Origin: Rhodamnia argentea
Lineage: Eukaryota; Streptophyta; Magnoliopsida; Myrtales; Myrtaceae
Length of the DNA: 64,000 nucleotides
NCBI RefSeq assembly: GCF_020921035.1
Contig: NC_063154.1
Span: 26,855,948 to 26,919,947 of the forward strand
Direction of reading: 5' to 3'
Part shown: positions 5,625 through 43,200 of the stretch, piece by piece
Numbering within the stretch: position 1 is the first letter of the stretch
Layout of the letters: each line of letters opens with the position of its first letter
Notes under the pieces: model-generated
Told to the model about the DNA's origin: nothing
What the model saw: only the letters and a program-made list of their open reading frames with translations
Database searches by the model: none
Program-made: the position numbers and the translations under genes

Positions 5625-8600
5625 ATGTCGCACCCGGTGTTCAGGACGGCGCAGATCATGCCGCTGAGCTCGCAAGCTCAAGTGACCACCGCGAAGCCCT
5701 TGCCTTCGCCGTTCGTGAAGCCTATGTTGCCCGTGCCGAAGTTCGGTCCGCTGTTGCCGCCGATTTGCGGGAAGGTGGTTCGGAGAGGCGGCGTCACTGT
5801 TAGGTGCTCGTCGGCTTCTGCTTATGAGCCTGCGGTCGACGGGAGTTGTGGAGGAGAGTCTAGGGCTCTTCTGGAGCGGTGCTTCCAGGCACCGAGCTCG
5901 TCTGGTTCGGACGATTTCGGTCCAGTCATGAAGGGGGAGTATGGTGCGTTTGGGGCGGTGACCCTCGAGAAGGGGAAGCTCGATATGACGCAGAAGCAGT
6001 CCACGTCTAGCCCTGAGGTCTGTTTTTTCTATCTCAGTTACAATTTGAAATTTATGAGTTTCCTGTGGTGTGTTTCTTGCGGAATTTGCCGTCTTCTTCT
6101 TGTTATTGTGCGTTAGGAGACGCCAATGAAAAGTAGGAAATGAAAATGTTATCAGACAGCTGTGGATTTTGGAGAAGTGGAATTCATGAACGAAACAGTA
6201 GAGTTTCGGTCTTTCTGCAGAGGAGATTAAGCTTGTAGTATGGGCGGTGTCTGGTTTGATGGATGGCGTACTGCCTTTGCATTTGAAAGGGAAAGAACGA
6301 AGAAAGACTGAATGAGATAACGTGAAAAAAGGTTACTCGTTCTTGACCTGGAATGTGATAGCATGCCACTTATGGAGCTTCTTACTTCATAACCATTGGA
6401 GTTGATGTTCTTCTCGCTACGGGTCATTCGGTCCAAATTAGACCTCATAATGCTAAATCAAGGAATGAGCGTGAAGGGTATTCTGTTTTGTAAGACTGAA
6501 ATTCAATTGGACTATCTGAAGAGGCTATTGGTGGGTCTTTTCAAACGATTTTAGTTAGCTGAAGTACTGTGCTTTATGGTGCATAAAATTGAACAATTTG
6601 ACTTAAAAGGTGCGATTTTTTCTGCTTTAACTTCGTCTTAAGCTCTTTTGAAGCTTGAGTGATAAAGAAAATCGTTATAGTGTCTATTGCTCAAGCATGA
6701 AACCCCTCATTTTATCCTTTTACATTAATAAGACATGCTCACTTCTTTGTTAACGATGGACACGGACAAAGTTACATGACCTGATGTAAGCAGTAGTTGG
6801 ATATGGGATTCCACGGACTCACAGACTAGACTATTCATTTCATAGTTGAGCCGATGTTAATTGTCAAGGTTGGCACTCGGTACTCTAGAATAGGTTTTTT
6901 TTTTTCCCTTGGACACTTGTTAAGGGTAGTCGGTGCATTGTGTGATGTTACATCATTCCGTAGTTCACAACTTCAACTCCTGATGGCTGAATTGTTTTAT
7001 CCACGTCGAAACTGTTGATCTATACGAACTCTGATGCCCTTCACCCTTACTCACTGAAATTAATGTTGCTTAATGGTTTAGATTTTTCAACATCTTGCTC
7101 TTGTAATTTGTTAGGATTCGGATTAACCTTGGAGGGGAGTCATTTTGTGGTTTAGATTGTACTTCGAGGTGAGTCATTTTATGGTTTAGATTAATCTTCC
7201 GGAGATCATTTTAGTAATTTGTTTCTGTCCAACACACGAACTGAAAATCCCTCACCAAGCCCAACGTTCGTGTCACACCTTGCCTCGTGTTCGCGTCATT
7301 TACTCCTAAAATTGCAAAAACTGTAGTCCAAATTTTATATGGTCTAGCTACAGTAAGTGATTCACACTTTCTTCAATCTTGCAAAGAAGAAACTATTAGC
7401 CAGTGTTTTCCCTCTCTTCTGAAGATCATCCAAAGTATGAGTACATCCTCAAAAAAGAAACCTTCAAGGGAATTGTTTCTAGATCTTAAGTACGGGGGAT
7501 TACTTGTGTCAAGATTTTCTCACAATTTTTTATGGTGTCTGGCTCTAGGATAATTAGAAGCAAGATGGCTGTTGGTTGTCCTTATAGCTCAAGTCTTATA
7601 GCCTGTTAAGGATAATAAATTTCTCAACTTGGGTAATTTGGTTGTTTGAGACGTCTGGCAACAGTATAACAACGATTCGTGTTCCCTCTCTCTACCCAAG
7701 ACGCGAGTGGGCACAAATTTTCTGATAGGTAAGTAGAAATTCACGATGAGGCACCAAGATGGTGCCAACCCATCTACAAAAGGAGCTTGAAACCAAAAGA
7801 GCTCAAAGCCATAATAATAAGGGGATCCATTATGAGACGGCGAATCTACAGTGTCAATCAAAGTATTTACATCATCTAAGAGTATAATCCTATATACCAA
7901 AGGTAAAAATTTTCCTACCAGTTTTGAATAATCTTGAGTATAGAACTCCTTTTCTTTCAAAATCTTGTTCTGCTTTTTCCAAGCCAACGAACCAAAAACT
8001 GGAAAGAGGAACTGTGGATATCCACTTTGATGTATGGCAAGGGATAAGAGTACCTCGCCACGCCCATGGTTCTTGCTCAGTGGATCTTGCTATAACCCGA
8101 CAATGCTCCACAGAGGCATAACAGGTAGCCCCAAAAAGTTGTTGTCCAAGGACAATGAAGAAGTGTGACATGGTAACTTATCCCAGCAGGGAAGTATTGA
8201 AAAAACTCATAAGCAGAAAGCCTCTACATATCCTTGATCATGAGAAACATAATTGTCAGCTAAAAACTAAAACTGATAACACCACCTTAAAATAGCTCTA
8301 TTGCATTATATTACATCTAGGTTACAACTCCATTTTTTAATGCCATTTGGTGTCAGTGTCCTAAGAGACATCCTTTGTGAGGCTCATGATGATTTTGAAA
8401 TTTTCTATACTAGGTAATCTAGTTCCAGTAACCTATGTAAGAAAAAAATTTAGTTCGTTGTTTTGATGGATTCTCTTATGGATTTTTATCCCTAGTCATA
8501 TTTTGTGCTAGTAACAGTCAGTTCTTGACTTCTATAAGATGATTAGGAAATTCTTTACGTTCATCTAATGAACTGAGAAATAACTCCAGCAAGTTTGCAT

Positions 8601-10713
8601 CGATAAATTCCTTGAAGAAATACAACTTTCTTATTTTCTTGGCTTTTTATACTTCCTCTGGTGTAGGATTGTCAATTTGCTTAAAATTCATTATTTGAGA
8701 TAAAGTGCTGAAATTTTTTTTTTTTTTTACAGCTTGCGACGGGGGGAGGTGGCGGTGATATTGGAAAGAGGATCAGTCATGGGGGAGGTGACGGAGGTGA
8801 CGATGATGGTGATGATGATGATTATTTTGATGACTTTGATGATGGCGATGAAGGTGATGAGGGAGGGCTATTTAGAAGAAGGATGTTTCTTGAAGAGGTT
8901 GCATTTAATGCTAATATGCATTCTTATACTTTATAAAATGATAATATATCTTAAGCACTGGCCTGATCATTGTTTTTTTTTTTTCCTTCCCAGCTATTCG
9001 ACCGCAAGTTTGTTAATGCAGTATTAAATGAATGGCAGAAGACAATGATGGATTTGCCCGCTGGCTTTCGGCAAGCATGTGAAATGGTGTGGATTCTTCC
9101 TCTCTATTTATTTCCAACTGTTTACTTATCCAGGAGAATACTGAAAATGGCCTGCAGGGTTTGGTCAGCTCCGCTCAAATGGTGAAGTTTCTGGCAATCA
9201 ATGCTAGACCAACAACTGCCAGGTTTATATCACGATCGCTACCGGAAGCTTTGTCTAGGGCATTTATTGGCAGGTAATAGTAACAAACAACTTCCTCATG
9301 CTGTAGCTTGGTCAGAAACCGTCCCAACTGTAGTTTTTAAATCTTTGGATGAACTGCTATGTCTGTGAGCAGACAGCAATTTTGGGGATTGTGCAATTAT
9401 CAATCTTAGATCAACTAATCTTGTTGCTTCTGGAGGAGGTTATCTTTATAATAGTGAAACAAATTTTAGTAAACTTTCTGAGTACCCGATGTTAGTAGAT
9501 GTTCTTTTCCCCAATTTGATAGTAAGGGGTCATGGGAAGCTGCTCAAACCATGGTAGGTATGATGCCTTCCTTCAATGGATCTTGTTACCAAGGTTGAAG
9601 AGCCAGATTGCCATGTACGCTAGATATCCGATGAGTCTAGATTCATAATTTGGGATGAATTCCACTTCTTAATGGATTTTTCTCACCCATTGATTTCCTT
9701 GGGAAAGGATACCCATTTAGCTATATCAGAAACGACAAAGCCCTTGGACCATTGCTGTTGATCAGCAAAATTTCTTTAGGACCATCACAGCCAGTTGCTG
9801 TCGATGAAATTTCGTTTTTCTGTTTCAAGAAGAAAGTGGAATATGCATAGTTCGATTTTTGAACATGCACGTGATGGTCAACATACTTGCTCTCTTGCCT
9901 GTTATTTTTAATAGGATGATTGCAGATCCTGCATTTTTATATAAGCTTCTCCTAGAGCAAGCTGCCACCATCGGTTTTGCTGTTTCATGGGAATGGAAGA
10001 ATCGTAAAGAGAGGTTTGTGCCTCTCTCTTTTGTTGCAGGATATGCAGGAGTAATTGATGTGCTCTTTGGATATGCAGAAATGACTTCTTTCTACTTGTT
10101 ACAGGATAAAGCAGGAGTGGGATTTGGCGCTTGTAAACGTTCTCACAGCATCTCTGTGCAATGCTGTTGTCGTTTGGTCACTTGCCCCCTGTCGTTCATA
10201 TGGGGACACATTCCGGTTTGATCTACAAAATACCTTGCAGAAGCTCCCCAACAATATCTTTGAAAAGAGTTACCCAATGAGAGAGTTTGACCTGCAAAAG
10301 AGGTTCCATTCTTTTTGTTTCAGAGCTGCAGAGCTGTGTATGGTTGGGTTGACTGCTGGGGCAGTGCAAGGTTCTTTGTCCAATTTCCTTGCAAGTAAAA
10401 AGAATGAAAGGTAAGCATTTCTGAGGCAACTTTTTCCTGGTGTGGTAACGCTGTTTTGAAAAGAAAACAGATAACAAGACTATGGTTCCATCTTACAATG
10501 GAAGAAAGTCCTATGATTTATTTTCTGACCTGGCAATAATTGACAGGTTATCGGTGACAATACCCACAGTGAGCTCAAATGCACTTGGTTACGGTGCTTT
10601 CCTGGGCATATACGCAAACTTGAGTTATCAGCTTTTATGTGGATCTGATAGATTGTTGACAAACCATTTTGATGTTATTGGAGTGGCCCTGTTCTTTGGA
10701 ACTGCGCTGAGGT

Positions 10714-37214: not shown

Positions 37215-40200
37215 CTATTCATCTGCGCATGAAAGCATGTGAGAAGCTTCGGCGTGCGCTTCTTCCAGTTTCATCATGAGGTCTCTGACAAACACTGTAC
37301 TTGTCCCGTGAGTCACCCGCAGTATGTCAACTGCTTTGGTCAGTGATTTGATAGCATTTCCCGTGTCGCCAAGTAACCTGCCGCGTGTAAAATAGCAAGG
37401 TTGAAACCAAAGGAAAAGCCAGTAATAGAGGGTGGGGGCGAACTCTGAGGCCATTCCATGCATGAAGCATTGGTTAAAATGACAGAGCAAGTCTTTCAAG
37501 CAGACGATGTAACATTGTCCTAACAATCTTCTCTACTCCAGGTGATGCTTTCTTAGTACTGCTCTTTGAAATAACAACACTAAAACAAAAGACAAATTCG
37601 TGACAGAGCACACCAATAGTTCAGCACCAGATCACGCATTGCTTGGTCTCAAATCTATCGTAAGTGCATGTAGCGTGAATTTACGTCAGCAACTTGTCCA
37701 ACAAAGTGAAGGTAATGCATGTACCTCATTGAAAAAATCAATGACTGACGCGAATCTCAACAGCCTAGCATTAAAAGACTAAATGCGGGGGAGGAAAAGG
37801 AAGAAGTAAGGTAAATGGACAATAAAAATCTAGAGAAACATACAGACCATTCAAGTTTTCCGCTGGTATAGTATTGTAACCCAAGCAAAGGATGGTACCC
37901 AGGATATACTCCTGCAGTATAAAGTCAAAGGTAGGAGTTCAGAGGAAAATACCAAAACACCAGAGACATTTTATCAGCATTTTTTTAGATCAAATTAAAA
38001 ATAGAAAGACAATTAAAAAATTCTAGCAAAAATCTTTCACAGACAATTAAGTATTATCAGTCACATAAACACTGGCACAACTACAGAGTGCCACAGCATT
38101 ATATGTATCAAATTCTTATTAAGTTTAGTTACCTTAAGCTCATTGCAGTATGTTTGCTCTAATGAATAATATTGCTATCAGTACAGCAGGAGCATTGCCA
38201 TCCAGGTAGCACAAGTTGAACAAAAACCGCACGTCTTTAACCAAAGTAGTAGTAGTAGTTTCGACCCAAAAGAAAAAAAAAAAAAAAAACCCAAAGTAGT
38301 GGGCATCGCAAGATATGGCTCCCATTAATGTCTCTAATGCTTTTAAGGACTAAAGAGCAAATATACTCATGGGTTCAAGGAGTGCGACTTCATGGAACAA
38401 AAGCTCCGGCCATATGATTGGATGAAATGGGGGCAAAAACTAACAAGCTAATTATTAAACACTGGACCACATGCAATCAAATCATTTTACTTCTAAAGCT
38501 TCCAACCAAATCACAGCTTAATGGTCTCAATTGAAAATACTCTATTGCCCTTATTCAAAAGATCTATCAAAAAGCTAGTATGAAAAGTAAGCCACATGGT
38601 ATATCTTGTTGGTTTTGGCCGTTCCTCGAGATTTTATGAAGAAAACCTAATAGCAACCTAATTTCAAATAATCTGATTGAACTTTCTTAAATAGAAAGAC
38701 AAACCGCTTAAATTGAGTTTCTTCGATTAAGGGGAAAGTGCAAGATAGGTGGAAGTCACGCTTACAAACAAAAACTCATCCCAACAGAAAAGAACATTGT
38801 TCAGCGGAACTTGTTATGGCGAGGCTCATTTGCTACTATAGCACTCCACTCAATAATCTCAAAGATGAATGGTTTCGTTATTTCACATCCACTTATTTCT
38901 ACCTCATAAGTGAGCATCAATAGGGAAAACATGCAAACTTGATAAATATCTGTGCCATGTACGTATAATTTGTGAACCCTGCATTGCTAAAAAAAATCCC
39001 AATTAAAAAAAAAAAAAAAACAGCATACTTTCATAAACAGGAATTGTTAGCTTGCAGTACACCAGAGCTTCCTTCCAATCTTGCAGATCCATCAACATCT
39101 GCAGTTCACAGAAGCTTTAAATGTCAAGCAACAACACAATAATCATTCCTCATGGAAGGATCAGATAACACCAAGCTATATATCACAGAAGCGAGCGCTC
39201 CACAGAGAAAACATAAGAATATGGAGAAAATCAACAGTCTATCTGATGCATTATTCGTTGGCAGACCAATCTTGAGAAAAATGGAAACTGGAATCATTCA
39301 AAACATGCTGCAGAAAAGACATTTCCCACTTCACAGAAATTTGAATACCTCAAAATTTGACAAATCATATGTTTCTTAGTTTGGTGAAACTGGTTCTCCA
39401 CCACACACTTCTAAATATTGGCAGATCTCCCTAGTTTTAGGCTCAAGAGAATTCATTTCTGGTAGCCGGAAACACTAAAACAAACTACCTTTGGATATGT
39501 TCAAGACAACAGAGTTGCGATGCTTATAAAATTCTCTCAATGAGGGATAGAAGCTATAATAAGACTAAGGAGAAAAAAAACTACCTTCAATATCTTTTCT
39601 CGGGTTCGCAACAAGATGATTGAAAAAGGATGATATAGTTTCCCTTGGAGATTCTCAATCATCTTATAGACGGAAACAGCTTCTTCATGTATTTTAAGAA
39701 GTCAAGTTTAAACCTTTCTCAAGTATGCAGCCAAATGGATGACTTGTTCTGAAATGGGAAAAGTGAGAAAAAGGAAGTAGTCCTAAGTGAAATTTTACAC
39801 CATGAAATGCAGTGAGAGAGATTCAGGAAATACAGACATTACACAAACATGCTGCCAAATTAGTTGCAGCAATGGCTGTGAAGAAAGGATACGGCTAGAG
39901 GACGTAGACAATGATGTCCTCTCTGCCATCAATTTAATTTCACTAACAATGCCTCTTATCTCTTCTTTGTTCCTTACAAGTCCACACTGTTGGCACACAA
40001 AACCTTGTTTCTCTGCATATGCAAGGAAAACCTTGTAAAAAACTTCAGCTATTCAATGAAAGTGCTGAAGCTTGATCCACATACCAGAGTCACGGAGCAG
40101 AAAACCAGAGCATCTGTCATCTTCGCATCTGTAGCCTTCCAAGATTGCACTTTCTTTGATATCATCAGGTTGCCCCTTAATAATGAATTTACCTTTGTTA

Positions 40201-43200
40201 ACCCAACTTCAGATTCTCAAATGTCAAGAGAAAGGATGCAACACAAGCAATCATAATCAAACTCTTTATGTAGAAAGTTACCAATTTGGCACAGCGAGGG
40301 CATGCGCAAGCAAAGTGGTATTGTTCTCTAAGAGACTTCAGTCTAGTCGTTGTGCTTCCAGCAGTTTCTATGTAGCTTATCAATACCTTGCAGGAAAATT
40401 ATTTCTGGTCAGCACAACAGAATGAAGCATGAGCACGACCCTGCTTGATGCACCAAAGTATTTCATACAGCGGTATAATCATCAAAGCATTCTTCTACAC
40501 CATGAGATGTAGGAGTGATGGGAAACGATAAATATCTCAAAAACAAACAGCCTCAAAATTCTGATTTGTTATAATCCCACAACAACCAGGTTGTGCACAG
40601 GCAATTTGACCAGATCTATGTGAATTAGTGCGCCACATAATCTGCGATAAGCAATTAAATAATCATACCAATACACTGACTGGAGCATTGTGGCTGGTTT
40701 TGTGTTTAGGTTTAGGTTCAGTGTCTTAAAGTTACCATCGCTAAAAGTTCAGTGGTTGAAAGTTTCAGCACTCATTTTTAAGCTTCATACAGCAACCCTT
40801 TAGTTAGGCAATGACAATGAAAAGATATTGCAGTTAATTAGCGTCAAATGGCTGGAAGGATAACTTCTTACATATTATATTATTCATAATCTTTATCCAA
40901 CCATTGGAGAAGCATTATCCAGTAACAAGAATCTGCTGATCAAACTTGATAGTGAAATTCACATTGAAAATCTTTTAATTGTTTTATCCAATCTTAATTC
41001 TTCTTGAAGCTAATGATGGGGTCTAGCATTTGTTTCTGTTCCATTACATATTCCATATAATTCTGCTGGATTGTACTGTCAAATCTTAGACTCACTAAAT
41101 GTCCAAAGCATAAAATTTTCTATTGTAGAAAGGCCAAGTCGAGATTCCACATTGACGTGCATTTGCATCTACAAAACCATGAACCTTGTTTCACGACTGA
41201 TCAGAAGCAGTGATTTTTCCTGAATCAGATTTATTCCTAAATTAAGATAAGATATAGCCAAGCACCAAGAATTCAAGATTAATCTATAAAAGATCACAGA
41301 ATTCTGCAGCCTGACAGCTACAATTTCATAGAGCATAATATGATTAAACATTGAATAATCGGGAGTTGGATGGACTGGAAAACACATTAGCAATGGTAAT
41401 CACCATGTTGGAATACTGGAAATGAGTTTATCCATGATTATTCCTGGATGTCACGTTAAAGTTCTGCTGAAAAACCACCGGTTACCCTATCATTAAGTAG
41501 GAATTTCAGCAGTGAACTGAAAAACGATAAGTTGCCTCCATTTCAAGAGGGAAGCAGGAGAATCAAGAAAAAAGCACAGACTACCTCAGAACCTTGCACT
41601 ATTTGTTGTACAGCACGAACCACAGCTGTCCTTCCCTCAAATAGCAATACTGCATTTGGCAAGCAGCTATACGAGCAAGTCAGAAGCAAAATATTGTAAT
41701 GGCAAGCATAGATGGTGTCAGACCAATAGGGCAGCTACCTGTGATTGATTAGAGAGATGACAGGATAGAGTCCAGTTCCTAGTGGTCTGAGCTCACTGTC
41801 ACAGATTGTATGTGCATTACATGAAAGCTGCATATTAGCTGGGTTTTTTAGCACATCAATTGGCAAACCAACTTCAAAATAAGATATTTCCATATGTCAG
41901 TGATTACAATTGCTTTGATGCACGTTGCACCTGTAGGCAGCACATAAACTATCTTCATCACGTAAAAGTTCTTGTCCGCTTCCAAATGATTATGACATAT
42001 TGTCAAATGTACCAACAGGACATACTACGTTAGACATCAAGACACAAGAATCCTTATGTTTCCAAAACCCACGGTTTGCCCAGCGCTTTAAGGGACAAAA
42101 ATACAAGATACAGAAGATTCTCTAGAAAGCAGCACTCCATTCAAATCTGAAGTACACTAGGGACTAGGGAGAGGGATAACTACTGTTTGAGAGAAATTAT
42201 ATTTGCACTCATAACAAACATGTATGCCTATTTAGCAAAGACAGCAGGCATGAAGTTTTTCAGAATGGACCTTGGAAAAGTTCTCTGCAACTTCTTTGAT
42301 GTTGATCTCGGGCCACTGCAGTATTATATTAATGAGGTTAGCCATTTGTGCATAGAGCACCAGCTGCTTCTCATCAATTTCCGACATGTCTTATCGGAGA
42401 GATTCAGTGAAAACAGTAATCTGGATAATCAAAACAGCATAAACAGTACAAACTATAACCAATGACTACACCAAAAGAAGCCGAAAAAGGATACGGGCCA
42501 CCAAGGCATCCACCAGACTATAATTGTCCATTGCAGTAGTCGAAATGATCTGCACAGGAGCAAACAAATCTTTGATTAATGATGCGATCCCCTGGATGGA
42601 TGCCAGAAGTTTTTTTTGCATTCGAACCGAATAAATTTGCAAGCATACAAATCTTTGATTAATGATGCGATCCCCTGGATGGATGCCAGAAGTTTGTTTT
42701 GCATTCGGACCAAATAAATTTGCAAGCATTCTCTCTCCATAGAAGAACATCATAAGAACTGGAAACTCGAACAGTTATTCAAGATAATACAGTTGATTTT
42801 GTTACGCTAGGCACAATATTGCAAAGACACCAATCTTACCAGATCCAAAAAGTGGGAATCCATAGTTTCTGTTGCTGTAAAGTGAGATAAACATCCATTG
42901 GAAATAAAGATTCGTATGATAACTCACCTCTTTCCCAGTAAATATATGACTGTCATTAATGGCAGAAACATTGACAGCAAACTATAGATGCTTGTCAAAT
43001 TATTGGAAAATTTGAAAATAACAGACAAACATGTGCATCTATGCTGACAATGTCAGCATAAAAGGAAATTAGAATTTTTCGAGCTCTAGTTATCTAAAGA
43101 TATATGTTCAACTTGGGAAACCTCAAAATATGTATACATTCTCACTAACCAGGAATAAATAATCTGCTGAGTAACAAATTAATAAAGTACACTGAAGTGC

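Follow-up and report, generated by a model that had tools for sequence, protein, structure and literature searches.

Two introns of a SET-MYND methyltransferase gene, introns 4 and 10, both with GT-AG ends, probably belong to the minor (U12-dependent) class, while the other eleven introns of the gene are probably of the U2 class; we put the probability of this reading at roughly 0.8. The gene lies on the minus strand of the window, by which we mean the whole stretch of 64,000 nucleotides of Rhodamnia argentea DNA that was analysed. For both introns, the assignment is well supported by features readable from the sequence, namely the donor, an intron phase of 1 and a C at exon position -1. The call was made because of these features and not because of the branch site or the pyrimidine tract.

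The gene was rebuilt from splice signals and reading frame as 14 exons and 13 introns, with a coding sequence running from 44359 to 37215 on the minus strand and a product of 476 amino acids. The reading frame is unbroken across all 14 exons. Intron 4 is flanked by exon 4 (42495 to 42549) on its 5' side and exon 5 (42271 to 42389) on its 3' side, and intron 10 by exon 10 (39893 to 40012) and exon 11 (39585 to 39682), all on the minus strand. Pfam searches with the first 423 residues of the product placed a SET domain at residues 22 to 245 (6e-12) and a zf-MYND domain at residues 54 to 91 (4.5e-9), and the top relatives in the PDB were SMYD2 (2.3e-43) and SMYD3 (1.6e-40). The hallmarks of the SMYD/ASHR1 type were both found, that is, a zf-MYND inside the SET domain and a C-terminal region matching SMYD3. 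Since the segment from exon 10 to the C-terminus matches SMYD3 (1e-11) across residues encoded by exons 11 to 14, the exons 3' of intron 10 are genuine. Judged by these matches, the predicted product combines SET and MYND domains and is a relative of SMYD2 and SMYD3. We take ASHR1 to be the plant name of the gene, following the label of a first-pass annotation of this DNA rather than a database name.

A six-frame search of the plant's own genome with the methyltransferase gave 11 matches, nine of them at the window locus on contig C5 and one each on contigs C8 and C6. The latter two are distant relatives, and within the reach of this search's scoring the gene appears to be present in a single copy. 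The relative on C8 (L027, G000:C8:10164356-10164652) is 38% identical over 91 residues and sits in an open frame of 419 amino acids, possibly with few introns. Within the methyltransferase gene, intron 3 contains a direct tandem duplication of 83 nt (42559 to 42724, 95% identical), which stops 9 nt short of exon 4 and so doubles the sequence shortly before the intron 3 acceptor.

The donors provide the clearest signal. Intron 4 (42390 to 42494, minus strand, 105 nt) and intron 10 (39683 to 39892, minus strand, 210 nt) have GT-AG ends and were identified from the gene model and the donor score. The first-pass annotation had reported that both open with the full U12 consensus, and this proved correct: each begins with GTATCCTTT, a match of 9/9 to RTATCCTTT, at 42486 to 42494 and 39884 to 39892, respectively. 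The remaining 11 donors score 3 to 7 of 9, the best being that of intron 12 (7/9). The further claim that no other donor in the window has this form therefore holds for the other introns of the gene, but the same 9-mer is present once more at 9704 to 9712 on the minus strand, where it may or may not serve as a donor. The same is true of a match to ATATCCTT at 8228 to 8235 on the plus strand.

In total, GTATCCTTT was found at 3 of the 6367 GTs in the window (both strands), and two of these open introns 4 and 10. At the window rate, with these two sites included, the binomial probability of at least two such 9-mers on 13 donors is 1.7e-5. It falls to 5.2e-7 when the whole-genome count of the 9-mer (2827) is combined with the GT density of the window, the genome count corresponding to a frequency of approximately 8e-5 of GTs. 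The shorter 8-mer RTATCCTT is not enriched in the window (4 matches versus 5.2 expected). The donor signal is the placement of the 9-mer on two splice donors, not an abundance of the 8-mer in the window.

The exon context points in the same direction. Introns 4 and 10 are both in phase 1 and both are preceded by C, while 6 of the other 11 introns are in phase 0 and 10 of the 11 are preceded by G. According to PMC7367187, U12 introns disfavour phase 0, and those in phase 1 or 2 tend not to be preceded by A or G at position -1. A perfect GTATCCTTT donor, phase 1 and a C rather than a G at -1 are features that introns 4 and 10 share with known plant GT-AG U12 introns.

Two snRNA components of the minor spliceosome are encoded in the same genome. 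A search of its 346.7 Mb (74 contigs) with gathering cut-offs of 53 bits for U12 and 33 bits for U6atac returned one U12 snRNA match (87.3 bits) and three U6atac matches (94.9, 86.6 and 57.2 bits), the last of which is missing the start that the others have and is possibly a pseudogene. On the strength of these U12 and U6atac snRNA genes, the organism can be predicted to possess a minor spliceosome. The U12 gene includes ATGAGTAAGGAAAAC, which we take to be the branch-site pairing stretch, and all three U6atac matches include AAAGGAGAGA, presumably the stretch that pairs with the donor. Donor positions +4 to +9 of introns 4 and 10 (TCCTTT) are the exact complement of AAAGGA within AAAGGAGAGA; the other introns agree at 0 to 4 of these 6 positions.

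An intron that is strongly U12-type, with GTATCCTTTTGA and TTTCCTTGAC, was found elsewhere in this genome in a PAP_fibrillin gene (L018, 1501 to 1600), where the Pfam match of the spliced translation spans the junction (3.5e-9); as this intron was picked by a pattern that requires a good branch site, it shows the occurrence of such introns and not how frequent good branch sites are. Four other translations gave no Pfam family above its cut-off. Across the whole genome, the donor-plus-branch pattern, applied to a narrow length class, gave 7 matches, two of them at one site, versus 11 in the reversed control.

Branch sites and pyrimidine content were found not to discriminate. Candidates were ranked by agreement with TTCCTTRAY, and the best candidate with an A at position 8 was taken. 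In intron 10 this is CTTCTTAAAA (39692 to 39701, minus strand), which can be read in two registers, TTCTTAAAA and CTTCTTAAA, each matching at 6/9 with the A 10 to 11 nt from the exon; a further 6/9 candidate, AAACTTGAC, lies 19 nt from the exon. In intron 4 it is the weak candidate TTCACTGAA (42403 to 42411, minus strand), also 6/9, whose presumed branch A is 14 nt from the exon. Neither intron rises above background, as a match of at least 6/9 is found at 41% of 6085 AG sites (those preceded by A, C or T), and the ordinary introns 2 and 11 carry 8/9 matches. The TTCTTAAA that had been proposed as a near-consensus branch site of intron 10 is indeed present close to the acceptor, but a match of this quality is commonplace. 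Likewise, the candidate described as weaker in intron 4 exists and lacks the CTTRA core, yet it scores the same as those of intron 10. The spacing of 10 to 14 nt between the candidate branch A and the exon resembles that of known plant GT-AG U12 introns; the poor match to the consensus is a difference from them.

The lack of a polypyrimidine tract in intron 10, also put forward as a mark of its class, fared similarly. The pyrimidine fraction before its acceptor is low (0.53, compared with 0.65 for intron 4), but the ordinary introns 1, 5, 8 and 11 are poorer still (0.41 to 0.47). Predicted duplexes between the branch candidates and the genome's own U12 gave no gain over 300 shuffles, 21% and 32% of which were as good, and the strongest such duplex belongs to the ordinary intron 9. 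Duplex energies with U6atac were -5.4 for intron 4 and -6.3 for intron 10, and -5.5, -5.3 and -6.0 for introns 1, 3 and 8. Branch scores and own-genome duplexes with U12 and U6atac do not separate the two introns from ordinary ones and were dropped as independent evidence of class.

These results bear on two alternatives to the U12 assignment. If introns 4 and 10 were both U2-type and their donor matches a coincidence, branch sites no more U12-like than background would be expected, and GT-AG ends fit either spliceosome; two exact 9-mers on 13 donors, at a probability of at most 1.7e-5, nevertheless make this very improbable. Somewhat less improbable, though still doubtful, is that intron 10 alone is U12-type and that intron 4 is a U2 or converted intron in which a U12-like donor has been left. 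The missing CTTRA core in TTCACTGAA would fit such a history, as would an acceptor of middling pyrimidine content with no pyrimidine-richer AG upstream of it within the intron. Against it stands the intron 4 donor itself, which matches at 9/9, with C at +5, a 9-mer that occurs at so small a fraction of GTs. We therefore favour the U12 class for both introns. Both would then be removed by the U11/U12-U4atac-U6atac spliceosome, with their weak branch sites in use.

The acceptors of the two introns are fixed by the reading frame, since every alternative AG at least 40 nt into the intron (2 of 2 in intron 4 and 6 of 6 in intron 10) runs into a stop within the 150 nt that were translated. One of those in intron 10 is a U2-like acceptor, TCTCACTTTTCCCATTTCAG (39749 to 39768, minus strand), with a pyrimidine fraction of 0.88, located 66 nt upstream of the real acceptor. 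A tract as rich as this is found at 0.8% of the 7909 AGs in the window, and the chance of one such AG among the 7 tested in intron 10 is about 5 to 6%. Its use clashes with the conserved C-terminal frame that is supported by the SMYD3 match. As a mark of the U12 class, a pyrimidine-rich acceptor left unused proved weak: 7 of the 11 ordinary introns bypass a pyrimidine-richer AG within 150 nt of the true acceptor, and introns 5 and 13 contain equally rich AGs (0.88) more than 300 nt from theirs. Because ordinary introns also bypass richer AGs, the acceptor at 39749 is notable for the effect that its use would have and is not a proof of class.

By frame arithmetic, an unremoved intron 4 would end the protein after 152 residues, within the SET region, and an unremoved intron 10 would end it after 377 residues, past SET and without the C-terminal domain. 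Splicing to 39749 would end it after 358 residues, again past SET and without the C-terminal domain. The methyltransferase gene may on this basis be sensitive to the efficiency of U12 splicing. The inner acceptor also calls for caution with gene predictors, as a model of ordinary-intron acceptors may pick 39749 and truncate the protein.

A U12 intron is also known from an animal member of the family. Table 1 of PMC7367187 gives SMYD2 a phase-1 AT-AC U12 intron in five species (human, dog, mouse, rat and chimpanzee) and classes the macaque entry as U2-type; the exon bases before the U12 intron are ATAAAT or ACAAAT. This was the sole source for SMYD2 as a U12-type gene in the literature searched, which was mostly without subscription journals. 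The tabulated bases imply Y, H, N or D, followed by K and then a codon starting with T, a pattern that the SMYD2 chain contains three times, as HKL, DKL and YKS (Tyr-Lys-Ser). We take YKS to be the only one that fits the human SMYD2 codons.

In 30 of 32 alignment runs, plant intron 10 fell 3 codons downstream of YKS and in the same phase, the other two runs being misaligned elsewhere, and in none of the 32 pairwise alignments did it share a residue with the SMYD2 intron. The PDB matches gave the same offset for intron 10, and the coordinates from the search with the C-terminal part agree. In 15 of the 16 runs with full-length sequences, plant intron 4 fell on a histidine that precedes the DKL candidate by 4 codons. 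Exact positional identity of intron 4 or intron 10 with the SMYD2 intron was given by no alignment. Protein family, U12 class and phase 1 are common to the plant introns and the tabulated mammalian one; the AT-AC ends and consensus branch site (TTTCCTTGAC) of the latter differ from the GT-AG plant introns, and, with YKS as its site, the alignments place intron 10 at a distance of 3 codons from it.

It is possible, and can be put forward tentatively, that intron 10 and the AT-AC intron of animal SMYD2 go back to one ancestral U12 intron, with a change of ends and an acceptor shift of 9 nt since then. The common phase and the nearness of YKS are consistent with this, and a moved acceptor, which would fit the AC/AG difference, could account for the offset of 3 codons. 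The failure of all 32 alignments to place the two introns together argues against it, as do the weakness of the C-terminal SMYD2 alignment (domain i-Evalue 1.5, 3qwv) and the fact that YKS is one of three fitting places. This shared ancestry is compatible with the U12 class of introns 4 and 10. We consider it unlikely that the whole of a more elaborate scenario applies, in which a U12 intron already present in the plant-animal ancestor gave rise to intron 10 and persists in SMYD2 with AT-AC ends, one lineage underwent the dinucleotide switch and the 9-nt acceptor shift, and, in the plant, competition between the U12 acceptor and the inner U2-like acceptor acts as a splice switch that decides whether the enzyme is made in full or lacks its C-terminal domain. 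U12 positions common to human and Arabidopsis have been counted as 7 (minor introns, PMC10639083 Table 1), 8 (PMC7367187) and, in an older count, 20 (PMC2426677); going by these tabulated or quoted figures, such sharing is rare but known.

The U12 assignment of introns 4 and 10 also fits what is known of genes with several minor introns. U12 introns are stated to gather in the same genes in 21 of 21 genomes tested (PMC7367187), and Na+/H+ antiporter genes, as cited in PMC2426677, have two shared U12 positions; the present gene resembles these in having two putative minor introns. The literature searched contained no report of U12 introns in ASHR1, whose Arabidopsis locus is AT2G17900 and which supplementary genome-wide lists of U12 introns may name. 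Two U12 introns in an ASHR1-like plant gene are credible as a new case, ordinary in kind, and not as a new phenomenon. If the assignment is right, it would provide one more plant example of two minor introns in a single gene, and U12 introns would occur in the SMYD family in plants as well as in mammals. Should intron 10 and the SMYD2 intron prove to be anciently shared, the position would be a useful marker, few positions being common to human and Arabidopsis.
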